Assembly: GCF_947258525.1 (NCBI RefSeq)
Contig: NZ_CAMYIP010000093.1
Location: 1 to 37,698, forward strand
DNA: 37,698 nt
Direction: 5' to 3'
From: an uncultured Eudoraea sp.
GTDB lineage: Bacteria > Bacteroidota > Bacteroidia > Flavobacteriales > Flavobacteriaceae
Below are positions 12,612 through 37,047 of the stretch, in pieces (within the stretch, counting starts at the first letter, position 1; the number at the start of each line of letters is the position of its first letter). The notes beneath the pieces were generated by a model. The model did no database searches, had not been told where the DNA came from, and saw only the letters and a list, made by a program, of their open reading frames with translations. The position numbers and the translations under genes are program-made.

Positions 12612-13319
12612 TTAGGGAATATATTTTTCCTCAGCGATTGACAGAAGTAATTGTAAATTTTTTACATTAATCTGTTTACGCCCGACAGAAATTGCGCCGC
12701 AGCGTTTTAGTTCTTGAATATGCCTGCTAACCACCGCCCTGGTAGTGCCAATGAGTCCTGCGATTTCTTCATTTGGTAAGTTGTTGATCAATTCAAGTTT
12801 TCTCGTTTCGCCGTTAATGTTTTTAAGGAGCAAATTAGATAATCTCACCAGCGTGCTGTGCAGGGTGACGTCCGTTGCAACATCCATGAGTTGCCGCATA
12901 CGATGGCCCAAATAATATAAAATCGCTTTATGTACTGTGGGGTATTCATTGATCCAGTTGCGCATATGGTCCATAGAAACCTTTAAAACCTCAGAAGTAT
13001 CAAAAGCCTCCCAATATACGTCATGCGGTTTGGTGTCCAGAAGAGAAAGTACGTCAAAAACATCACCCTGTGATAGCAGAAAAACCGTGTGTTCCCTTCC
13101 TGAATCCGGATTGGACTTAAACACTTTAAGTCGACCGGAAACAATAAAATGAAAAGTAGAAGAAACCTCAATACTACTTTTAAAACTCCTCACATTCCAT
13201 TTTTCAGCAGTCATTAAATCTAGTAACTTTTCAATTGAAGCGATGCTTGAATCCTCAAAAAAAGGGGAACTTTGTAAAGCCTTTCGGTATCTGGTGAAGT
13301 TCGGATTTTCCTTATTCAT
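12612..13319 (-). CDS. Crp/Fnr-family transcriptional regulator
   Basis: A 235-residue regulator from the ATG at 13319 (MNKENPNFTRYRKAL), chosen over the ATG at 13364 because it has the A-rich upstream context and normal Crp length. The cyclic-nucleotide-binding-type beta roll spans about residues 15-130 (FHFIVSGRLKVFKSNPDSGR; VFLLSQGDVFDVLSLLDT). The long dimer helix follows, then a winged HTH (NEEIAGLIGTTRAVVSRHIQ) at about 180-200. No cysteine cluster for Fe-S binding is visible at the N-terminus. The canonical cAMP-binding R-S/T of E. coli Crp is not evident, so the effector is uncertain. It lies just upstream of the palindromic promoter at 12.5 kb and is a candidate regulator of it. Confidence 0.9.
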   Translation of the reverse strand: MNKENPNFTRYRKALQSSPFFEDSSIASIEKLLDLMTAEKWNVRSFKSSIEVSSTFHFIVSGRLKVFKSNPDSGREHTVFLLSQGDVFDVLSLLDTKPHDVYWEAFDTSEVLKVSMDHMRNWINEYPTVHKAILYYLGHRMRQLMDVATDVTLHSTLVRLSNLLLKNINGETRKLELINNLPNEEIAGLIGTTRAVVSRHIQELKRCGAISVGRKQINVKNLQLLLSIAEEKYIP

Positions 13320-13453
13320 TTTATTCAGAACAATTTTGTTGAAGTTACTAAAAAGTAAGGGCATGATAACGATTCGATTAGAAATTAAAAGAGCCTTTAT
13401 TGCAGCAATTTTTGGAATAATTTTATATTGCCTTTATTAGTCTACCCAAAAGG

Positions 13454-17223: not shown

Positions 17224-18438
17224 TTATTTTATGAGATCAGCGACTCTCATAGCAGAAATTGTAGCTCCTTCATGCAGGCCATCATCAAGCCAGGCACCTG
17301 CGAAATACGTATTTTTATGCCCATTTAGGGAAATAAGTTTTGATCTGTGTTGCACGGCATTTTGGGAGTATAATGGTGTTTCGTGATTTGCAACATGGAT
17401 GATTTTACGGGAATCAATGAGGCTTTCCAAATTATAGGAAAGAAAATACTTAGGGAGAGGGTCAATTCCACAAAGGTAATTAAGAATGGCGTTGTAGCCC
17501 CACCCTGATTTTGTTTCAAAGAAGTCAAACTCAGAGGGCCGCTTTATCGGATATGGTTTGTAGAGGCTGTCATCCTGGTGAATAATTGTAGTGATTTTGT
17601 TCCCTTTCCATTTCTGTAAACAAAATAATTCCTCGCTTGTTGGTTCTTGTAACAAGTTTAAAATCTGATGAGGAGGTATGGCTAAAACGACTTTGTCAAA
17701 GAGTAATCTTTCGCCATTTTCAATCTCCAAAATTACATTCTGATCTTCTCGTAAAACTTTCCGCACCTCTGAATTGATGTGAAATTTACCATTATTTAGG
17801 GCTATAATTTTCTCAATATAAGTGTATACACCTCCGGGAATTCGAAACCATCCGGCAAGCATATAATTTTTGATATTTTGAAGGGCAATTTCACTAGAAA
17901 AATCGTCAAGGAGACGGTAATCGGTTGAATAACTATACATCATGAATAGCTTTAACCAATTCGTACTGGTGGTATCTTTTCCAAGAAGCGTTTTCAATGA
18001 TAAGTGCCGGGCTTTTGACAGGCTAATACTCTTTAATTTTATACCAAGCAGGATTGATTTCAGATATAACAAATGCAGCTTAGTGAAGCTTTTTAATAGA
18101 GAAAAACCCCTAAAGTTTTTTCTGGACATAATTGATGATAAAATGAATGCTCCATTTTTATAAAAAACTCCTGTTCCTATATTAACAGGTTCATAGCAGA
18201 CATCCAGCTCATCAAGTAAAGACTTGAAGTAGACAAATGAATTTGAAAACTCAATAACACCTCCTTCAAGCAGTAAGTCACTATCAGAGTTGTTTGGTGT
18301 GGCATTTTTATTGAGTGTTATAATATTGCCTCCAAGCACTGGACTTTTTTCGAACACTTCAACATCATGGCCTTGTTTATTCAGTAAATAAGCAGTTATC
18401 ATTCCGGCGGCTCCTCCTCCTATAATCGCCACTCTCAT
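17224..18438 (-). CDS. FAD-dependent amine-oxidase-type oxidoreductase (COG2907-like)
   Basis: A 404-residue flavoprotein. The N-terminal FAD-binding motif is IIGGGAAGMITAYLLNKQG with the acidic end of beta-2 at VEVFEKSPVLGGN. The C-terminus YFAGAWLDDGLHEGATISAM is the usual flavin-binding end of the amine oxidase/phytoene desaturase superfamily. It most resembles the predicted NAD/FAD-binding proteins often encoded beside lipid-modifying enzymes. No membrane segment is predicted. Its ATG overlaps the stop of the upstream CrtI-type gene by 4 bases (18435-18438), so the two are translated together. It is the last gene of the lipoxygenase-cyclase cluster. The substrate is unknown; an unsaturated lipid or isoprenoid is inferred from context. 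Confidence 0.87.
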   Translation of the reverse strand: MRVAIIGGGAAGMITAYLLNKQGHDVEVFEKSPVLGGNIITLNKNATPNNSDSDLLLEGGVIEFSNSFVYFKSLLDELDVCYEPVNIGTGVFYKNGAFILSSIMSRKNFRGFSLLKSFTKLHLLYLKSILLGIKLKSISLSKARHLSLKTLLGKDTTSTNWLKLFMMYSYSTDYRLLDDFSSEIALQNIKNYMLAGWFRIPGGVYTYIEKIIALNNGKFHINSEVRKVLREDQNVILEIENGERLLFDKVVLAIPPHQILNLLQEPTSEELFCLQKWKGNKITTIIHQDDSLYKPYPIKRPSEFDFFETKSGWGYNAILNYLCGIDPLPKYFLSYNLESLIDSRKIIHVANHETPLYSQNAVQHRSKLISLNGHKNTYFAGAWLDDGLHEGATISAMRVADLIK

Positions 18439-19976
18439 TTTTTTAATACTTTATCTCCGGTTAGCCTTTCATAAAGGGTAGCCCCTGTCCAAAACGTGCC
18501 GGCAAACCCGGCAAACCCGGAAGAGGCGTTACAAAAATAAAAATTCTTTAAAGAGGTCTTGTAATTTAACCTCCCGGGGCCAATATTTTCAGGAGTAATA
18601 TTTGAGCCATAAGAATTTCCTTGTGGACACCAACAATATCTTTCATTTGTTGTTGGGCTTCCAGTCATTTTAAAGACCATATGATTACGAAACCCCGGAA
18701 TATATTCTTTTTCTACAACATCTAACATAGCGTCTAGAATTTCCATTTTTTTATTTTTATAAATGCGTTGGTCCCCAATTTTTAATTGTTTCCAGTGCTC
18801 GTAGTTTGCCACGGTAAGCAATTCAACTATTTGGTGATTTGGTGGACAATCCCCTCCTTTATTGGTCAAAAGTGTAGGTGTAGTTATAGCAAAACTGGGA
18901 TTAGAATAGTCAAAATTATCATACATGTTGTGATAAGCTTCGTTAATATTCTTGTGCCCCGAGTGGAATACATTCCATTCCCCAAATCCAAATTTCCGTA
19001 AATCAAGATCTTTTACAACACAATAAGCCATGAAATTCGAAGGCGAGTATTCAAAGTTCAACCTTTTCTGTAGTTTTTTAGAAAATTTATGAATACCAAT
19101 AATCCGGGCTGCCTTTTGCGGGTCCATGTTACAAATTACTGTGTTGCCCAGGTGATCATTTAGTTGTCCGGTTTTTAAATTTCGGCTCTTCACTCCTTTC
19201 ATTACCCTCTTTTCCAGAATGAAATTGGTTACTTCCGTTTCAAAAAAGAACTGCCCCCCATTAGAGATGATCTCCTTTTTTAAGGAATCAATAACATGTT
19301 CAAAGTGTTTTTCAGGATAGTAAGCTCCGCGTTGATAACCAGTAAATAACATAACCCATGCGTAGAAGGATAATTTATCAGGAGGTAACAGAAAATCAGG
19401 CCACTGGGAGGCCAATAATGCCTGTACTTCAAGAGGAAGATGGAATTGATCAAAAACTTGCTGCAGTGTTTTCTTAAGGTGAGAAAGAGTAGTAATAACG
19501 GGGTTAAGGTTTTTTATAATTTGAGAAGCATTGATGGGATATGAGATATTGTCTAATCCTTTGGCCACAATATTTACTTCGCGCAAGAAGGAAACAATAT
19601 TTTTTTCATAATCCGGAAATAAAGAAACCAGCCTGCGAATGAGCTCATCTGAGTCCGAAGGAATTTTGACACTGTAACCAGGAATGTACATATGATCAAA
19701 CCCATCGGGATTATAGCGGTTGAACTTAACATCCTCTTCTAAGTTTAATTTTTTCAGTACCTGATTTACGGACTCTCCTTCACCACAATTCCAGACATAA
19801 TGCAATTGTGCGTTAAATTTGTATTTGTTCGCCATTTCAAAAGTGTGCCCAAACCCTCCGGCAAACTCATGAGCTTCAATAATATGGACAACTTTTCCAG
19901 ATTTAGCAGCCAAAGAACCAAAGACAAGAGAAGCTAGTCCACTTCCAACAATTAGATAATCAGGGTTTCTTCTCAT
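18435..19976 (-). CDS. CrtI/retinol-saturase-type FAD oxidoreductase
   Basis: A 513-residue protein of the phytoene desaturase/all-trans-retinol 13,14-reductase superfamily. The dinucleotide motif VGSGLASLVFG is at residues 10-20, followed by the typical EAHEFAGGFGHTF (34-46). The C-terminal flavin segment is NFYFCNASSGFAGFAGTFWT. These enzymes add or remove hydrogens on conjugated isoprenoid or related chains. No carotenoid genes (crtB, crtY, crtZ) are in the window, so a carotenoid pathway is not supported. It starts 111 bases after the stop of the cyclase gene on the same strand and overlaps the next flavoprotein by 4 bases. A lipid-redox step next to the lipoxygenase is the best inference. 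Confidence 0.87.
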   Translation of the reverse strand: MRRNPDYLIVGSGLASLVFGSLAAKSGKVVHIIEAHEFAGGFGHTFEMANKYKFNAQLHYVWNCGEGESVNQVLKKLNLEEDVKFNRYNPDGFDHMYIPGYSVKIPSDSDELIRRLVSLFPDYEKNIVSFLREVNIVAKGLDNISYPINASQIIKNLNPVITTLSHLKKTLQQVFDQFHLPLEVQALLASQWPDFLLPPDKLSFYAWVMLFTGYQRGAYYPEKHFEHVIDSLKKEIISNGGQFFFETEVTNFILEKRVMKGVKSRNLKTGQLNDHLGNTVICNMDPQKAARIIGIHKFSKKLQKRLNFEYSPSNFMAYCVVKDLDLRKFGFGEWNVFHSGHKNINEAYHNMYDNFDYSNPSFAITTPTLLTNKGGDCPPNHQIVELLTVANYEHWKQLKIGDQRIYKNKKMEILDAMLDVVEKEYIPGFRNHMVFKMTGSPTTNERYCWCPQGNSYGSNITPENIGPGRLNYKTSLKNFYFCNASSGFAGFAGTFWTGATLYERLTGDKVLKK

Positions 19977-20087
19977 AAGAGACGAAGTTAAGAATGAATA
20001 TCAATTTATAGGGAGCCATAAAAAAACTACTGGATATTATAAATAATTATATACTCAAATCGAGGCATTAGATTGGACAAAAACTAA

Positions 20088-23000
20088 TTATTTATGAACG
20101 AAGTACATGTCTATTTCACCTTTATGCTTCGCTTTAATTTTACCTCTGTAAGTACAATCGAAATCAGATTTAATGAGCTCATAAACCTTTCCTGACACGT
20201 TAATTTTTCCGGGAGCGCCATTTTGTTCCATTCGCGCAGCAACGTTTACGGCATCACCCCAAATGTCATAGGCGAATTTTAATGATCCTACTACCCCGGC
20301 AATAACTGGCCCTGTGTGAATACCTATTCTAAGTTCGAAATAAGGCAAATTTTTTACAGATCTTTCTTTTATAATTTTATTACATACGTTTAGCATTTCA
20401 AAAGCTGCTGTTACTACAGCTTTTGTATCGCCCCTTCCGGGAACTGGAAGCCCACCAGCAGCCAGGTACGCATCTCCAACTGTTTTTATTTTTTCTATCC
20501 CGTGGCGCTTCATAATTTCATCAAAGGAGGAAAAGTAGAGATCAATTAACTCTACTAATTCACTTGGGTTAAGTTTTTCGCAAATTATGGTGAAGTCTTT
20601 GAAATCACTAAATAAGATGGTAGCATTTTTGAACATTTTAGCACTTGCTTCACCATTTTTCTGGAGCTCTATTATAATTTCCTCAGGTAATATGTTCTTC
20701 AAAAGCTTTTCTGACTTTTTCTTTTCTTGACTCAATTGTTGGGTTCTATCACGTACCTTCTGTTCTAATGAATAATAAAGTTTAGCGTTTTCAATAGAAA
20801 TTGCTGCCTGAGAGGTAAGCATTTCAGTCAAATGGAGCCTTTTTTCTGTAAATACTGCAGCAGCCAAATTATTTTCTATATACATGATGGCAGTCGTTTT
20901 CCCCTGATTTACAATAGGAACACAAAGAAGAGAGCGGACCCTATTAGCTTTCAAATACGGGTCGGACTCAAATTGTTTTGAAAGCGATGCGTCATCTAAT
21001 AAAAGACTTTCACCCGTTTTCCAAACATAGTTAACAACCATTTTAGAAAGGGAATTGGACTTTTCGAGGGGGATTGCCTCCATAATTTCTGAGTCATTGC
21101 TGCTCATATCTTTTTTAACCTCAACTATAAGGGTGTCATTATGTACCAATATTAAAAACCCTCGTTGACCCCCAACGTTTTCGATAAGAATGGTCAATAA
21201 ATTTGACAGGAGTTTATCGAGCACAATTTCGCCCGAAATAACTCTGGATGATTTAAGAATCGCTTCAATATCTATAATCTCAGATAGATCCGCCGTCTTC
21301 TGCGAAGATGTGTCGTCCGCAATTTCGTTTACGGCAATGGCATAGATTCCCTTTAATAGGGTTACTTTTTTTCTTGCGCCATTTAGATCATAATTAGCAA
21401 TTGATAGCATAGCTTTTTCTAACGCATGCTCTGGTGCACCAACAACAAACAGATACTTCGCCCAAAGCTCATTTACAAGCCCTTGTAAAAAGCTGTTATT
21501 GTGTTGAACAGTCAGCGCATGTGCTTGGCTGAAGTAATGCTCTACACTATCGCGATGATTTGAAGTTGCCGCAAGGTAGACTGCCGTTGCAAGGAAATAC
21601 CTGGATTGATAATTTTCTGCACATCCTAAAGACCATTTTTTAAGTTTCCTAAGGGCAGAAGTTATTTTGAGTTTAAGTTTTAATTTTTGATGGATCGGAG
21701 CGCCTGAAATTTGGTTAGATAAAATTAATATTCGATAAAAATGATATTCAATTTGTGCCATCGTGGTTGGAGCAACGTCATCAACAATTTTGGCTTTAAT
21801 CAAAAATTCATTGGCCTGAACAGAATTTCCAAAATGAAAGTGATACATCATTTCATATACATAATACCAGGCAACAGGCATCAATAGTCTTTTTTCTGTC
21901 AGAACCCTGACAAATTCGCCCTCTTCTAATTCCGCATCATCTTTAATAAAGTGGGCATGTGTTGTCCCTGTCATTTTTGACACATATCTTCTAAGTACAA
22001 ATAATAGTTTCTGTGAGTATATTTCTTGTACCTTTTCTGTGTAAATGGAATACTCCACAATGTCTCTATAATACGTCTCAAGGGTTTCTCCCAGGTATAG
22101 TCTTTTAGCCATGGTAGCCTGTAAACAATAGGAGGCGAAAGTATAACTACCAGATTGATCAAGCATTTTAAATGCATCCTTGAGCGGATTGGCAGCCAAC
22201 CTAATTGGTTCGAACCAATGTTGAGTTGAGAATGCTCTTAGAAAATACACTTTAGCAATAACAATTGGGTCCGTTGATTTTTTACATAACTCAATTGACA
22301 AATCCGCAAATTTTCTAGCTTGTTTTGCGTTTCCAAGAGCAGCTCCTTCAACAAATCCATATAAGCCATATCCAAAAGCAGATTCCTCTGCATTACCATA
22401 TTTAATCGAAATTTTCAGCATTCTCAGCACCAGGAATAACATGGTATTCATGTCATATACATATGCTGTGGCAGAAATATTCATCAAGGTCTGCAAGGCA
22501 AATGCTTTATTTTTATCCTTAATTTCTGGTAACTCAGTAAACTTGCTCGGGTCTTTCCCCAGCAAACTTAATTTTGCCATTATAAGAATGGGAGCCAACT
22601 CAGCCAAGGATGGTTCACTTTTAAATACGACGCCATATGTCTTTAGAATTCTAGCACCAAGCTCCAGGGTTTCTTTGTTTCTGCCTTGCTGAGCATATTG
22701 ACGTAACCGAATATCGTAAACCCTGGCAATTAGATCAGGGTTTTTGGTTTTGCTAAGCACTAATGAGTAAATTTTGTCGGCATTCTCATATTTTCCGCAA
22801 ATATATTCGCACTCAGCTAAATCTATATACGCTCCTGCAGTCGTTTCTTCATCGCTCACCCAGAGATCTTTTGTAAGTAAATCACACGCTTTAGAATAAT
22901 ATTCTGCTGCTTTTGAAAATGAGGCTGCCACTTTAGCCTTTACCGCTGCCCTAAGGTTTAGTTTTTGAACAATTTGACGGGTTTTATTATCATTAATAAG

Positions 23001-25217
23001 GGTTAAAGATAAATTCAAATGATTGACAACATTAAAAAGCTTAGATTCAAGTTCTTCCGGACTTAAGTTGGCATAGAGACGAGTGCCGATGTTCAGGTGC
23101 ATCTCTTTTCTTCTTTTCTCTGTTATTAATCCATAGGTCGCCTGCTGAATTCGGTCGTGAGAAAATTTATATTTGGCATTGATAAAATAGCCTTCGTTTA
23201 CTATCTCCTCAGCAGTTTTATAGGAATCGTCAATGGGCTTTATAATATCATTGGAAAGTGGTTGCCACAAATGATGAGCAATAACATTAGCTGCAACATC
23301 AGTAGCATGTTTTAACTCTAGAAGGTCAAAAGTATTTCCCATGCATGCTGCGTATTTCAGTAATTCAAGGGATTCCTTAGGTATTTTCACCAATTTTTGA
23401 ACCATTAAATCAATGACGTTACTCGTAATCTCGGCAGCCTTAATTTTGTTGATATCCCACTTCCATTTAGATTCGACAGAATCAAACCAGAGAAGGCCAT
23501 CATCAAAAAGGCTTGATAAAAATAATTTTAAGAAAAAAGGATTTGAACCAGTCTGCTTTGATATTATATTAGATAATTCTGAACTATTAGTGGGGTCTGT
23601 TTTTAGCGTATCGGCGATTAGCTGATTTATGCTTTCCTGGGCTAGGGGCTTTACATTTATTTGCCTTAAATGAATTCCCGAATCCTTTATATCAGAAAGT
23701 GTAACTAGTAATGGGTCTGTAGATGAAACTTCATTATCTCGATATGCTCCTATAAAAAGTATATTTTTATTGTTCTCATAAGTAGACAACTTTTCAAGTA
23801 ATTTTAAAGTTGACAGGTCTGCCCATTGTAAGTCGTCCAAGAAAATGGTTAAGGGTTTTTGTTTAGATGCAAATGCTCCAATGAATCGGCATAAAACGTC
23901 AAGAAACCTATTCTGTGATTCAGCAATCGGTAGTGGAGGTACATCGGGTTGCGGACCAATTAATAACTCTAACTTTGGTAGTACATCAAGAAGCAATTTG
24001 CCCTGTCCATCTAGCCGGGATATTATCTTTTTTACTTGTCCGCCGGAGACTGAATTTGGTTCTGACAAGATAAATTTAATCAAATCATTAAGGCCGGATG
24101 TTAAAGCATGGTAGGGATTGTTTCTTTCAAGTTGATCGTATTTACCGCTCATGAAATACCCGCCTTTTGATAAGATCGATTTATGGACTTCATTTATTAG
24201 TGTTGTTTTACCAATACCAGAATATCCGGCAACCATAAGGATTCCAAAATGGCCAGTAGTAACATACTCAAAAATGCTTAGCAGCTTATTAATTTCCGCT
24301 TCTCTTCCATATAGTTTTTGCGGGAATGAAAATTGATTGTTAAGGTCGTTTTTTCCCAGGGGAAAGGAAGCGATCATTTTTTGGTCGCGGTACTGATCGC
24401 GGCACCTTTCGAGGTCAACCAATAGCCCAGGTGAACTCTGATAGCGATCTTCAGCGTTCTTGTTTAAAAGCTTAAGTATAATTTTATCAAATATATCAGG
24501 AATTCCACTGTTATATTTTGATGGTGAGTCAGGGTATTTGGCAATATGACTATACACTAAGTCAACAACACTTCGGCTTTCGAAAACTTTTCTTTTCGTC
24601 AGCATTTCATACAAAATGCAACCAATTGAATATAAATTTGAACGTAAATCGACAGTACGATTCATTCTCCCGCTTTGCTCAGGAGCCATATAGGCAATTT
24701 CATTTCCTAATTCATTGAAATTGATAAAATTTGGCACGTCCTGATTCAGCATGGAGGCTGTTTCCAAATCTAGAAGTTTGACTTCCTTAGTCTTCCAATT
24801 CAATAATATGCTTTCAGGTGTTAATCGAGAATGCGTAACACTACCGGCGTGAAGTTCAGTAACTGCTTTTATCAAATTAACCGCTATGGTAAGAAAATCA
24901 TCAATTGAAAAAACGGACTTATCAAGATGATTGATAAGTAATCCATCACCGAAATGTTCAAAAACCATTACCGGGGTTCCCTTGTTATTTATAATATCCA
25001 GGGGAGCCAACATGGTCTTTAAATTCAATCTTTTAATGATTGATTGTTCACGCTTATACCTTGCCCGTTGCTCCTGAGGGCTTATTTTTCCTTTGGGTAT
25101 TTTAAGTAAAACAGGCTTATGGGCAGCTTCATCCGTGGCCTCTAAAAGTGTTCGTTCTGGATTTTCTTGAACAAGTTTATTGATTTTATAACCAGGGATT
25201 ACGTGTTCAGTAACCAT
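20088..25217 (-). CDS. Giant signalling protein: pseudokinase-AAA ATPase-GAF-adenylyl cyclase
   Basis: A 1709-residue protein. (1) Protein-kinase fold, about 8-275: Lys39 is kept (VLLKIPK) and APE is at 178-180, but the catalytic loop reads HSRLTPES (129-136) instead of HRDLKPEN, and DFG is DLE (150-152), so it is probably a pseudokinase. (2) AAA ATPase, about 300-560: Walker A GYSGIGKT (331-338), Walker B IFLDDLQWAD (458-467). (3) A long helical-repeat region, about 700-1300. (4) GAF domain, about 1335-1477, then a coiled coil to about 1510. (5) Class III cyclase from about 1528: metal-binding Asp1538 (FSDFKDF) and Asp1582 (TVGDAY). Lys1578 (KIKT) and Asp1651 (YDIWG) specify adenine; Asn1658 and Arg1662 are also present. 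Cyclase activity therefore looks intact and cAMP-forming. No membrane helices. The lipoxygenase stop lies 4 bases upstream. Confidence 0.93.
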   Translation of the reverse strand: MVTEHVIPGYKINKLVQENPERTLLEATDEAAHKPVLLKIPKGKISPQEQRARYKREQSIIKRLNLKTMLAPLDIINNKGTPVMVFEHFGDGLLINHLDKSVFSIDDFLTIAVNLIKAVTELHAGSVTHSRLTPESILLNWKTKEVKLLDLETASMLNQDVPNFINFNELGNEIAYMAPEQSGRMNRTVDLRSNLYSIGCILYEMLTKRKVFESRSVVDLVYSHIAKYPDSPSKYNSGIPDIFDKIILKLLNKNAEDRYQSSPGLLVDLERCRDQYRDQKMIASFPLGKNDLNNQFSFPQKLYGREAEINKLLSIFEYVTTGHFGILMVAGYSGIGKTTLINEVHKSILSKGGYFMSGKYDQLERNNPYHALTSGLNDLIKFILSEPNSVSGGQVKKIISRLDGQGKLLLDVLPKLELLIGPQPDVPPLPIAESQNRFLDVLCRFIGAFASKQKPLTIFLDDLQWADLSTLKLLEKLSTYENNKNILFIGAYRDNEVSSTDPLLVTLSDIKDSGIHLRQINVKPLAQESINQLIADTLKTDPTNSSELSNIISKQTGSNPFFLKLFLSSLFDDGLLWFDSVESKWKWDINKIKAAEITSNVIDLMVQKLVKIPKESLELLKYAACMGNTFDLLELKHATDVAANVIAHHLWQPLSNDIIKPIDDSYKTAEEIVNEGYFINAKYKFSHDRIQQATYGLITEKRRKEMHLNIGTRLYANLSPEELESKLFNVVNHLNLSLTLINDNKTRQIVQKLNLRAAVKAKVAASFSKAAEYYSKACDLLTKDLWVSDEETTAGAYIDLAECEYICGKYENADKIYSLVLSKTKNPDLIARVYDIRLRQYAQQGRNKETLELGARILKTYGVVFKSEPSLAELAPILIMAKLSLLGKDPSKFTELPEIKDKNKAFALQTLMNISATAYVYDMNTMLFLVLRMLKISIKYGNAEESAFGYGLYGFVEGAALGNAKQARKFADLSIELCKKSTDPIVIAKVYFLRAFSTQHWFEPIRLAANPLKDAFKMLDQSGSYTFASYCLQATMAKRLYLGETLETYYRDIVEYSIYTEKVQEIYSQKLLFVLRRYVSKMTGTTHAHFIKDDAELEEGEFVRVLTEKRLLMPVAWYYVYEMMYHFHFGNSVQANEFLIKAKIVDDVAPTTMAQIEYHFYRILILSNQISGAPIHQKLKLKLKITSALRKLKKWSLGCAENYQSRYFLATAVYLAATSNHRDSVEHYFSQAHALTVQHNNSFLQGLVNELWAKYLFVVGAPEHALEKAMLSIANYDLNGARKKVTLLKGIYAIAVNEIADDTSSQKTADLSEIIDIEAILKSSRVISGEIVLDKLLSNLLTILIENVGGQRGFLILVHNDTLIVEVKKDMSSNDSEIMEAIPLEKSNSLSKMVVNYVWKTGESLLLDDASLSKQFESDPYLKANRVRSLLCVPIVNQGKTTAIMYIENNLAAAVFTEKRLHLTEMLTSQAAISIENAKLYYSLEQKVRDRTQQLSQEKKKSEKLLKNILPEEIIIELQKNGEASAKMFKNATILFSDFKDFTIICEKLNPSELVELIDLYFSSFDEIMKRHGIEKIKTVGDAYLAAGGLPVPGRGDTKAVVTAAFEMLNVCNKIIKERSVKNLPYFELRIGIHTGPVIAGVVGSLKFAYDIWGDAVNVAARMEQNGAPGKINVSGKVYELIKSDFDCTYRGKIKAKHKGEIDMYFVHK

Positions 25218-25221
25218 CTAT

Positions 25222-26793
25222 TTAAAATTGAATACTACGTGCAATTTCTTTTAATGGGAAAAAGTTCCTAATTCCTTTGTTAGCCAACCCTCGTTCAGTA
25301 TTTCGAAGATCTTCAAGGAAGTCAGCATTTGCTTTTTGAAGCTCTGGAGTACTGAATTTATAATCAGTATCATGCAGGAGGCTAACATTTGTGGGAATAT
25401 AAAACATTTTCCACTCGAGCCTGTGCCTGAATACGTCATCTTTTGTTCTTAATTTGGCGTAATCAAAGTCCGGGATATTTCTCTCAGCGGGAGCTGGGAC
25501 TCTTAATCTCATAGGCATCTGATTGAAGTTCATCATGCCAAAATCATAGTGGTCTCCGGCATGCCCCACGCTCAGATCCCATACGATCTTTGTTAAAAGT
25601 TTTGTCAGCAGTTCATTTTTATGGTCTTTTCGCATTTCATTAGGCTTAGGAAAGTGAAAATCTTCATGACCCATTAGCCCACCTGCAACTTTGCCTAAAC
25701 TTTCTGAAAAAGGGCCGCCTGCATCTTCATCTTGCTCGGTAATGTGAATGTTGAGGTAAGGTTCAATGTATTTTGCCCATAAAATTAAATCCTCTTTGTC
25801 CTTTGCTGTGATATGTTGAACCACCTTTTCTACAAAACGACCGATACACTTATAATATTCCATTTGAAACTGGTGATACTCATTGTTGCTTTCTGATTCC
25901 GGCTTCATTGTGAAGTGAAAGGGTGGGTATGCCTTGTATCTGCCTTTAACACCTTTATGGGCATCAACAAACATTTGTGCTATTTGATCTTCAGTGCCAC
26001 TCACCCCGCAAAAGGGATATTCCTGTTTGTTTTTAATAGGAGAACTCTTAGTCGTTTGTACTGTCAGGTTTAGTGATAAAGAATACTGTAAATGAGGCAA
26101 TAACAATTTTAAAATTAAATTCTCTTTTGGCAATATGGTTTTTGAAATTGCATTCAAGGCATCCATCGGAAAATGCAAAGTTGAATGATGAGAGAAGACT
26201 ATTCTGTGCGCGCAACCCATTAAGGCATAATACTTTGCCAAAGCCCATGCGTTTCCATCTTCAGGATAAATAGTACATTTTGTTGGTTTATCTCCCTCGG
26301 CCGGCACGGATTCGACATAGATGGCAACAGGCTTAAAGTAATGCATGTCATTTTGTTCTAACTGTTCAAAAAGGCAGACAGTAGTGGCCATATATTGATC
26401 ATCGACTGTTGGAACATGTCTCATCAAGTAAAGATCAGAAATGAAATAATTCTTAGATGGGTCCAGTTTACCCATCTCAAAACCAGGGAGAAATTCTTTA
26501 ATCTCTTGATTGTTTGCCTTGTACATAAATTTGGAGTACGACCTAACACACATGAAATCGCAAAACTCTTCATCGCTTATCGGAATTAGTCCTGGGTTTT
26601 TCCTTGCATATCTTTTTGCAGCAAAACGATAGAACACCGCATTCTTTATATATCGAAGTCCAATCTTCCAGAAAAACTCCCGTTTTTCTTCTTTATTAAG
26701 GTGCATCACTATTGGCCACAATTTCAATGCTTGATTAGGCTGAGGCCAAGGGCCTGCCATGTCGTATAGATAATCTTTTTTGTTTACCGGCAT
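25222..26793 (-). CDS. Lipoxygenase-like protein (catalytic domain only)
   Basis: A 523-residue protein I identify as lipoxygenase-like by motif alignment. W-x-LAK at 183-187 leads into AHRIVFSHHSTLHFPMDAL and then LILKLLLPHLQYSLSLN (226-242), matching the conserved LOX segment W-L-L-A-K ... H-x4-H-x4-H ... L-L-x-P-H. The second iron-ligand pair is GHAGDHYDFG: His411 and His415 (H-x3-H, as in animal 15-LOX). The C-terminus RSIQF aligns with the usual N-S-(I/V)-x-I, whose final carboxylate binds iron. Odd points: the first ligand site holds Arg197, with His196 beside it (H196-x5-H202 instead of H-x4-H), and the last residue is Phe. There is no N-terminal PLAT domain or signal peptide. It is the first gene of the cluster, 4 bases before the cyclase gene. 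Dioxygenation of polyunsaturated lipid is the known family reaction; activity here is unproven. Confidence 0.8.
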   Translation of the reverse strand: MPVNKKDYLYDMAGPWPQPNQALKLWPIVMHLNKEEKREFFWKIGLRYIKNAVFYRFAAKRYARKNPGLIPISDEEFCDFMCVRSYSKFMYKANNQEIKEFLPGFEMGKLDPSKNYFISDLYLMRHVPTVDDQYMATTVCLFEQLEQNDMHYFKPVAIYVESVPAEGDKPTKCTIYPEDGNAWALAKYYALMGCAHRIVFSHHSTLHFPMDALNAISKTILPKENLILKLLLPHLQYSLSLNLTVQTTKSSPIKNKQEYPFCGVSGTEDQIAQMFVDAHKGVKGRYKAYPPFHFTMKPESESNNEYHQFQMEYYKCIGRFVEKVVQHITAKDKEDLILWAKYIEPYLNIHITEQDEDAGGPFSESLGKVAGGLMGHEDFHFPKPNEMRKDHKNELLTKLLTKIVWDLSVGHAGDHYDFGMMNFNQMPMRLRVPAPAERNIPDFDYAKLRTKDDVFRHRLEWKMFYIPTNVSLLHDTDYKFSTPELQKANADFLEDLRNTERGLANKGIRNFFPLKEIARSIQF

Positions 26794-36261: not shown

Positions 36262-37047
36262 TTACTTAAGGTTATTTAGTTCGTTATCAATCTCAATAAT
36301 CAGGCCGCGAACTTCGTTCAACACGCTCTGATTAAAATCAATCATAGCCTTACGAAATAAGGAACACTCATTAAGGATAAAAATAAATTCATTGTCCGTC
36401 CGGGCTCCTTCCGGGTCTTGTAATTGGATAGCCTTTTTGTACAAATCATGATCATAGTAATCTTCCCCTCCAGGGAATTTAAGTACGTAATCCGTAGAGT
36501 CTGGTATAACGGTAAAATACGTTCTAAAAAAGGGCATTTTTTTCTCGTATAAATCAAAAGACTTAAACTCATTGTGCATTTTGCTCAATGCCCTATAATA
36601 GAAATCGTAGAAGCGCGCTATATTCTTTCGAAGTGAATTGTTTTGTACCAGACCTACCTCATTGTTCTGCAGGTTTTCAAAGGTTGACCGGTGAAGGGCT
36701 GTCCAGAGTTTTATCCCTAGGGCATCGGTCATATTTATATCGGTTATAGAGGTACGATTTCCGAGCAGATATTCCAACAATTTTTGCTCCTCCCTTTGAA
36801 ATTTGCGATGATACTCCAGGTTAAAGCTAATATCCAGAGTATCGAGGAGGATATCCTCTCGTATATTAGTTAGAAGCGTAATTTCACTTTCCACCAATTT
36901 CCGCTCTTCATTCCAATTGTTAATCTGCAAGGCAATCAGAATCCCAATCACGACCAGTAAAATCTCTCCAAGGGCATATCTGGAATATTTGAAGAATTGG
37001 TTATCGTCTGCCAGTTTTTTACGGATTTTTCTGAAAAAGCCAATCAT
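36262..37047 (-). CDS. DUF6090 family membrane-anchored protein
   Basis: A 261-residue protein. The N-terminus MIGFFRKIRKKLADDNQFFK, followed by YALGEILLVVIGILIALQIN and NWNE, is the signature of the DUF6090 family common in Flavobacteriia. It has one membrane helix at about 26-43 with a basic cytosolic start. The rest (about 45-261) is mainly helical and extracytoplasmic (ESEITLLTNIREDILLDTLD; LFRKAMIDFNQSVLNEVRGL). The function of the family is unknown. The gene is solitary, on the same strand as the DUF285 protein, with 125 bases between them. Confidence 0.9.
   Translation of the reverse strand: MIGFFRKIRKKLADDNQFFKYSRYALGEILLVVIGILIALQINNWNEERKLVESEITLLTNIREDILLDTLDISFNLEYHRKFQREEQKLLEYLLGNRTSITDINMTDALGIKLWTALHRSTFENLQNNEVGLVQNNSLRKNIARFYDFYYRALSKMHNEFKSFDLYEKKMPFFRTYFTVIPDSTDYVLKFPGGEDYYDHDLYKKAIQLQDPEGARTDNEFIFILNECSLFRKAMIDFNQSVLNEVRGLIIEIDNELNNLK

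Follow-up and report, generated by a model that had tools for sequence, protein, structure and literature searches.

A lipoxygenase-like gene and a giant kinase-like/AAA/GAF gene as a candidate two-gene signalling module in Bacteroidota

Introduction

What lipoxygenases (LOXs) do in bacteria is an open question, and the available passages of PMC6612559 call these enzymes rare, present in <0.5% of sequenced species. Here we examine a 37,698-nt stretch of DNA from an uncultured Eudoraea sp. of the Flavobacteriaceae (contig NZ_CAMYIP010000093.1, positions 1 to 37,698; the whole stretch is called the window), in which a gene for a LOX-like protein stands immediately before a gene for a giant multidomain protein, which we call kin, and is followed further on by two flavoenzyme genes. 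An earlier reading of the letters without database searches (the sequence-only reading) had proposed that the four genes form one lipid-oxidation signalling module, and the locus raises the question of which of these genes belong together and what an oxidative enzyme might do beside such a protein. From comparisons across Bacteroidota we propose, at a probability of about one in two, that the LOX-like protein and kin constitute a two-gene signalling module within a larger class of kin genes that lie beside genes for enzymes predicted to oxidise unsaturated lipids, polyenes or polyisoprenoids.

A divergent lipoxygenase-like protein

The LOX-like gene (25222..26793, minus strand) encodes a protein of 523 amino acids that matches the Pfam Lipoxygenase family PF00305 marginally, at 23.7 bits against a cut-off of 23.6 over residues 127-243, and at 20.5 bits, under the cut-off, in the genome search; its homologue in Algoriphagus boseongensis (genome G173) has no PF00305 match at E<=0.01. 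A single-sequence search of the PDB gave weak lipoxygenase matches (E=3e-4), and a profile of 11 LOX-like homologues, drawn from Bacteroidota and from four metagenome-assembled genomes (MAGs) titled Deltaproteobacteria, Myxococcales, Cocleimonas and Gammaproteobacteria, matched mammalian LOXs (3rde, E=1e-11). In the alignment to 12-LOX, H411 and H415 coincide with the HSSNH motif, that is with ligands three and four, and H207 coincides with ligand two. When an AlphaFold2 model built from the 11 rows (mean pLDDT 75.6, pTM 0.82) was compared with the PDB by Foldseek, 159 chains were matched at E<=10, and the best 50 of these 159 were all LOXs, with a probability of 1.00 and TM-scores by query of 0.48-0.67. 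A profile-profile comparison between the LOX-like family and the true LOXs described below reached a probability of only 82%, which is weaker evidence than the PDB profile search and the predicted fold. Two histidine pairs, H203-x3-H207 and H411-x3-H415, are invariant in all 11 homologues, each of which ends in S-I/L-Q-F/Y (-SIQF in the window protein). The carboxylate of a C-terminal isoleucine (or valine) is the usual rule among LOXs. Because we looked for the H-x4-H spacing and the C-terminal isoleucine and found neither, we name the family LOX-like and not LOX. Judged by alignment and model, the window protein has a LOX-like fold and probably binds metal as LOXs do, as a member of a divergent family that departs from typical LOXs.

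The LOX-like gene and kin stay together in Bacteroidota

In a set of 99 genomes comprising relatives and the window's genome itself, the LOX-like gene was detected in the latter alone; of 395 genomes drawn over Bacteroidota two have it, those of the window and of A. boseongensis. In the latter, a LOX-like gene whose product is 36% identical to that of the window is separated by 6 nt from a kin homologue (31% identity over 1700 residues). Among 117 relatives of A. boseongensis, four, itself included, possess the gene, and a scan of genome_contigs with a 5-row alignment returned ten LOX-like loci (L092-L101), four of them outside Bacteroidota and six within, the latter being the same four Algoriphagus and two MAGs. 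Single-sequence LOX-like scans of genome_contigs, viral_contigs and plasmids returned no relatives, nor did a scan of viral_contigs with a 2-row alignment or of phages with the A. boseongensis protein.

Five of the six Bacteroidota loci from the scan have kin directly after the LOX-like gene; at the sixth the contig ends ~50 nt past the LOX-like gene, but another contig of that genome carries part of a kin gene with 77% identity to the A. boseongensis one. Counting the window, kin follows in 6/6 loci that have downstream sequence, which bears out the sequence-only reading in its claim that a LOX-type protein is tied to a cyclase-bearing multidomain protein. Compared with the window, the LOX-like proteins of these pairs are 35-42% and the kin proteins 31-35% identical, and the pair recurs in two or more families and in two additional MAGs. 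With start codons assumed, the junction measures 4 to ~12 nt in the window (4 nt, 25218..25221, from the LOX-like stop to the kin start), in A. boseongensis and at L096. The pair was probably acquired, since the LOX-like gene is missing from the other 98 relatives, and the remaining members of the same family in the phylum sample have no kin.

Two neighbours of LOX-like genes outside Bacteroidota may be recorded here. In the gammaproteobacterial MAG, an ECF sigma factor gene (PF07638, L101:2148-2774) comes directly after the LOX-like gene and is perhaps another signalling partner. At L099:2509-4047 (minus strand), a gene for a TPR_MalT protein (AAA-TPR-like), cut by the contig end, is convergent with the LOX-like gene.

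Architecture of kin

The window kin gene (20088..25217, minus strand) encodes 1709 amino acids, with strong Pfam matches to Pkinase, AAA_16, GAF and Guanylate_cyc. Its kinase-like domain (residues 27-260, 24438..25139) carries HSRLTPES in place of HRDxxxxN and DLE in place of DFG; because the catalytic residues are lost, the label pseudokinase given by the sequence-only reading fits the window copy. In 27 other kin proteins the aspartate of HxD is kept in 23 and D-F/L-G in 15. There follow an AAA_16 ATPase domain (residues 301-489, 23751..24317) with the P-loop GYSGIGKTTL, a long linker, a GAF domain (residues 1333-1475, 20793..21221) and a class III nucleotide cyclase domain (residues 1526-1708, 20094..20642). 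Within the cyclase, the metal-binding aspartate pair, the K/D pair and the N/R pair are all present, in the motifs FSDFKDFT, IKTVGDAY and DIWGDAVNVAARM; we take the K/D pair to mark adenylyl cyclase specificity and presume the usual meanings for the other residues. The GAF cysteine C1432 is kept in 25 of the 28 kin proteins compared, and a PDB search with this domain matched general GAF proteins, none of which indicates a ligand. We know of no ligands of kinase-like/AAA/GAF proteins.

Kinase-like, AAA and GAF parts occur in 28/28 kin proteins, as judged by BLAST on frames read from stop to stop, and we define the class by this order of kinase-like domain, AAA ATPase, long linker and GAF domain followed by a cyclase or histidine-kinase output. 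The outputs comprise 16 cyclases, seven histidine-kinase-like domains (by a crude motif) and five that are unclassified. In a split version (L097:11474-17943), the gene after a histidine-kinase kin encodes a response regulator that carries a class III cyclase domain, and because of this regulator both outputs can lead to a cyclase.

A Crp-like regulator gene with cNMP-binding and HTH domains lies in the window ~6.7 kb from the cyclase gene (12612-13364, minus strand) and is a possible reader of cyclic AMP (cAMP). A role of the module in defence was considered and set aside: the best 25 of the 32 PADLOC families for kin match the kinase/cyclase part only, and nothing specific was found.

Oxidative enzymes beside kin across Bacteroidota

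With kin minus its cyclase as the query, the 395 genomes gave 23 places at E<=1e-60, spread over 18 genomes and including the window. Neighbours were read up to ~6 kb on each side of 20 of these places (some contigs being shorter) and taken from earlier loci for the three others, and chosen neighbours were scanned with Pfam. A true LOX gene lies beside kin in six genomes (G215, G119, G222, G273, G367 and G173). In an alignment of seven rows of these partners, H399, H404, H618, N622 and the C-terminal I721, the usual LOX ligands, are invariant. The true LOX of A. boseongensis, which is divergent from the LOX-like/kin pair, matches the PDB entry 5ek8 at E=3e-95; an alpha/beta-hydrolase gene adjoins it in place of a homologue of allene oxide synthase (AOS). 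At the other five of the six loci, the true LOX gene is adjoined by a companion gene of 363-385 codons. Pfam scans of four companions gave a sub-threshold catalase match in one and none in three, and a 5-row companion profile matched the coral AOS 1u5u at E=7.4e-72 over profile positions 29-332 of 367. This grouping, in single clusters, of a LOX, a homologue of a catalase-like hydroperoxide-converting enzyme and kin, as recognised by homology, is the best indication that kin belongs with the chemistry of lipid hydroperoxides. The companions may be AOSs, hydroperoxide lyases or enzymes of another activity; two coral fusions of high identity have different activities (PMC5617202).

Other partners belong to other enzyme classes. 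RPE65-like genes adjoin kin in five loci, three within the sample (G375, G207 and G245) and two outside it (G522 and G486), and their products, aligned by sequence alone, share exactly four invariant histidines (241, 351, 447 and 715) in 5/5. A typical RPE65 gene also lies 2.6 kb from kin at G288:C44, beyond a FAD gene and a gene on the opposite strand. Rubber-oxygenase genes of the MpaB/Lcp type occur near kin in four loci (G204, G183, G111 and G197:C6), with a Pyr4-type terpene cyclase gene standing between Lcp and kin in G197:C6 and a methyltransferase gene in G204. Both the RPE65 and the Lcp families act on unsaturated chains.

Linkage counts, controls and phylogeny

Six genes in six of the 395 genomes exceed the PF00305 cut-off, and 6/6 lie within 8 kb of kin, so that every LOX gene over the cut-off in this sample is tied to one class of giant sensor, as are some relatives of carotenoid and rubber oxygenases. 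The window LOX-like gene is the seventh PF00305 match, under the cut-off. An eighth, in G292, was not counted as a LOX: it covers profile positions 72-168 only, falls under the cut-off, has a signal-peptide-like start and lies far from kin. A LOX, RPE65 or Lcp gene is found within 8 kb of 15 of the 23 kin places, or 14 of 22 without the window, which prompted the kin search. Random placement of 21 genes and 22 untruncated kin places in the 18 genomes gave a mean of 0.098 and a maximum of 3 over 100,000 draws. As a control, cyclase-domain matches lacking the kinase part in five genomes, some of them on short contigs, lay within 8 kb of the three families or of a LOX-like gene in 0/28 cases. In the 21 kin-bearing genomes, six of eight RPE65 genes and four of 12 Lcp genes are near kin.

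In a kin tree, the five kin genes linked to a LOX and an AOS homologue group together in a single clade (100/100). Partner labels agree with the tree, with 12 changes compared to 19.1 when shuffled and 0/200 shuffles as low. Neither the LOX-like-linked nor the RPE65-linked kin genes form one group, and the row G173C4, which is labelled LOX-like and is also near a true LOX, falls outside the LOX clade. Because its branches are long, and with the warning that the window row meets another long one, we use the tree solely for the LOX clade and the overall change count; 11 of its 25 inner branches are open. The tree label MBL reflects a presumed identity, and both genes so labelled lack a Pfam match.

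A proposed signalling module and its alternatives

The coupling of oxidative enzymes to kin is well supported. The sequences show the genes themselves, the predicted LOX fold, the conserved linkage and the replacement of one class of oxidative enzyme by another, whereas we infer the substrate, the product, the role of the product as ligand and the direction of signalling, be it the product that is sensed, the enzyme that is the sensor or the enzyme that is the target. In the reading that we prefer, the enzyme would oxidise an unsaturated lipid to a hydroperoxide, an allene-oxide-derived oxylipin or a cleavage aldehyde; kin would bind or sense this product by means of its linker or GAF domain, the AAA domain acting as a switch; and the output would be cAMP, or a phosphorelay that, in the split case at L097, would end in a response-regulator cyclase. 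We favour a scheme in which the enzyme makes the signal and kin reads it because the partners are of a chemistry type with kept ligands, because an AOS homologue accompanies them and because unsaturated chains are their common theme. The earlier idea of a product made by the enzyme and reported by the cyclase is plausible in that it suits this wider pattern of gene neighbourhoods.

Several results weigh against the proposed module. The LOX-like protein may not be an active dioxygenase, since the usual H-x4-H spacing is lacking, with the first histidine one residue closer (a histidine at 202 is found in the window protein only), and since the last residue is Phe/Tyr in 11/11 homologues and not Ile, the terminal carboxylate being still present. 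Outside Bacteroidota, 0/4 LOX-like genes adjoin kin, and of these four genomes two have a distant kin-like match elsewhere and two have none. Gene order varies among kin clusters: in some of them kin comes after the enzyme gene, but in G222, G273 and G367:C2 it lies upstream. Only LOX was named in advance, RPE65 and Lcp having been added after being seen as neighbours, and in the kin-bearing genomes two of eight RPE65 and eight of 12 Lcp genes are not near kin. One of the control cyclases, G522:C1:190378, has a LOX-like gene at a distance of 9.1 kb, only slightly past the 8-kb limit. Finally, eight of the 23 kin places have no LOX, RPE65 or Lcp gene within 8 kb. At G428 and G297 the second gene upstream is a FAD gene (recognised by Pfam in the former and by likeness in the latter), G197:C5 has an ALO/FAD_binding_4 gene instead, G367:C12 has a haem peroxidase gene beyond an opposite-strand gene, and at G288:C46 and G173:C1 the neighbour gene has no Pfam match; of the remaining two, G472 is cut by a contig end and the neighbours of G375:C118 fell outside the Pfam scan.

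Among the alternatives, the one that survives best holds that the enzyme is itself part of the sensor, such that a lipid- or O2-binding oxygenase fold would touch kin and alter its output on binding, with no need for catalysis. The divergence of the LOX-like protein, with its shifted first histidine and aromatic C-terminus, would suit this idea, as would a constant kin architecture beside changing partner classes and junctions as short as those seen for protein partners. We nonetheless regard it as doubtful, as the true LOX partners keep their usual ligands and five of six come with an AOS homologue, which favours chemistry. A reversed flow of information appears unlikely; here kin would sense something else and control the making or activity of the enzyme, and the oxidised lipid would be a product of defence, predation or catabolism. 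Co-location alone does not give direction, the position of kin relative to the enzyme varies, and the alpha/beta-hydrolase gene beside the A. boseongensis LOX would suit catabolism, but the outputs are cyclases and histidine kinases rather than a dedicated transcription factor next to the enzyme, and one sensor class is common to four unrelated enzyme classes.

The proposal of the sequence-only reading that all four genes of the cluster belong to a single pathway of lipid oxidation, in which the flavoenzymes would shape the substrate or the product, draws on their tight order, and other FAD genes do lie near kin in G428, G297 and G288:C44. The four minus-strand open reading frames are indeed where that reading had put them, in the order and with the junctions it gave: 4 nt between the LOX-like gene and kin, 111 nt between kin and flavoenzyme B, and an overlap of 4 nt between flavoenzymes B and A. 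FAD families were matched in both flavoenzymes. Flavoenzyme B (18435..19976, minus strand, 513 amino acids) is CrtISO/CrtD-like, its best NCBIfam match being TIGR02730 (E=1.2e-19, 70.5 bits, far below the cut-off of 586.9), and flavoenzyme A (17224..18438, minus strand, 404 amino acids) is amine-oxidase/LkcE-like (Pfam Amino_oxidase, 4.7e-19; LkcE in the PDB, E=6e-14), with one desaturase-like model matched in PADLOC. The 111-nt gap after kin stands against a single unit, as does the finding that neither flavoenzyme occurs at any of the ten loci L092-L101 within contig reach (four contigs measure 3.7-8 kb). Each was also sought in 60 genomes, where at the thresholds used the sole other genome with either is G065, from another family of the order; there the two lie side by side (47-48% identity for A, 68% for B), with no LOX-like or kin gene in the 19.5 kb fetched. 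Since the flavoenzymes are missing from the ten LOX-like loci and paired alone in G065, we consider the four-gene cluster to be two adjoining modules and the single pathway improbable: at the Bacteroidota loci compared, the LOX-like gene and kin stay together and the flavoenzymes do not keep company with them. The window flavoenzymes would then be an added pair, which may work on polyenes of the same kind. The third gene of the A. boseongensis locus (L005:7444-8877), considered as a flavoenzyme, proved to be a Peptidase_S58. That co-location is without function, with kin genes sitting in variable islands that also gather secondary-metabolism oxygenases, is very improbable: the absence of the LOX-like gene from all 98 relatives searched and of kin from other same-family genomes of the sample (kin was not searched for in the genus) would fit, but the pair is kept across families and MAGs, 6/6 LOX genes over the cut-off are linked to kin against 0/28 control cyclases, and a single clade of kin genes is linked to LOX and an AOS homologue.

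On the proposed enzyme-to-kin reading, we tentatively suggest, at less than even odds, that Bacteroidota possess a modular oxylipin/apocarotenoid hormone system, in which interchangeable oxygenases (LOX with AOS, LOX-like, RPE65-like and rubber-oxygenase-like) would each produce the signal that its matched kin reads and answers by cAMP or a phosphorelay. If true, bacteria would have their own equivalent of jasmonate, eicosanoid and retinoid signalling. The pattern suggests that oxidised lipids are sensed in a way not yet described. It puts forward a concrete, testable candidate for a bacterial receptor of oxidised lipids, adds a LOX-AOS gene pair from bacteria and hints at what kinase-like/AAA/GAF proteins take as input.

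Relation to known systems

The sequence-only reading knew of no described system of this composition, and we likewise found none in the open-access literature: neither a bacterial lipoxygenase nor an RPE65-like oxygenase tied to such a sensor, nor a rubber oxygenase so tied, although no search named rubber oxygenase. The available passages of PMC6612559 make no mention of Bacteroidetes or kinase, and those of PMC11719350 hold nothing on such enzyme-sensor coupling. The oxylipin-dependent quorum sensing (ODS) system of Pseudomonas aeruginosa, described in the accessible part of PMC6377657, is a known bacterial oxylipin signalling system and resembles the present one in that oxidised fatty acids are made and the receptor gene PA2076 adjoins the enzyme genes PA2077 and PA2078; it differs in using diol synthases and the LysR-type receptor OdsR, whereas here LOX-, AOS-, RPE65- or Lcp-type enzymes accompany kin with its cyclase or histidine-kinase output. 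The coral AOS-LOX fusion (1u5u, 3dy5) unites the two enzyme families that adjoin in five Bacteroidota loci, but the Bacteroidota genes are separate and stand beside a giant sensor gene, and the window LOX-like gene has no adjoining AOS homologue. Among solved bacterial lipoxygenases, 5ek8 is matched by the true LOX of A. boseongensis and CspLOX2 (5med) ranks with the best fold matches of the window LOX-like protein, which is however only 12-13% identical to it in the fold alignment and lacks the usual first-histidine spacing and terminal isoleucine.

The TOMM kinase/cyclase family TIGR03903, by its name tied to a biosynthetic system, shares the kinase-AAA-cyclase architecture and matches the window kin at E=2.8e-41. 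At 141.4 bits against a cut-off of 705.75, the window kin is therefore not a member, and its class has lipid or polyene oxidases as partners instead of TOMM peptide enzymes. The fission yeast histidine kinases Mak2 and Mak3 are eukaryotic and have, to our knowledge, neither an adjacent oxygenase nor a cyclase. They are alike in bearing GAF as well as PAS domains and are needed for H2O2 signal relay, while peroxide sensing by these GAF domains, in the accessible passages of PMC3644883, remains to be demonstrated; their relative Chk1 of C. albicans combines a protein-kinase domain with GAF, as stated in part of PMC9069115. By analogy only, they might serve as a precedent for GAF-bearing histidine kinases in peroxide signalling.

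Other genes of the window and of related loci

A sensor-like gene was seen beside a cyclase gene once more: a FIST-domain gene (L013:10493-11731, G522) lies directly upstream of a small cyclase gene. In two Algoriphagus genomes, proteins sharing a start (FPRINFHG / YPRINFYG) are encoded directly after cyclase genes (L013:13110-15311 and L048:4195-6021); they have no Pfam match over the cut-off, and their start presumably resembles that of VioB-type proteins. Short genes with a common start of the FFRKIRQ / YLLYAIGEI type (L014:1253-11000, L139:6336-7058 and L074:10620-10874) occur near several kin or flavoenzyme loci and form a tandem run in G522. At L139:17298-19499 lies the start of an open reading frame that resembles a Cas12a effector.

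Within the window, the GC content of the cluster is not set apart from its surroundings, and the promoter-like sites (38 versus 33.8, standard deviation 5.8) and terminator-like sites (12 versus 7.9, standard deviation 2.6) decide nothing. A short gene at 36262-37047 carries DUF6090.

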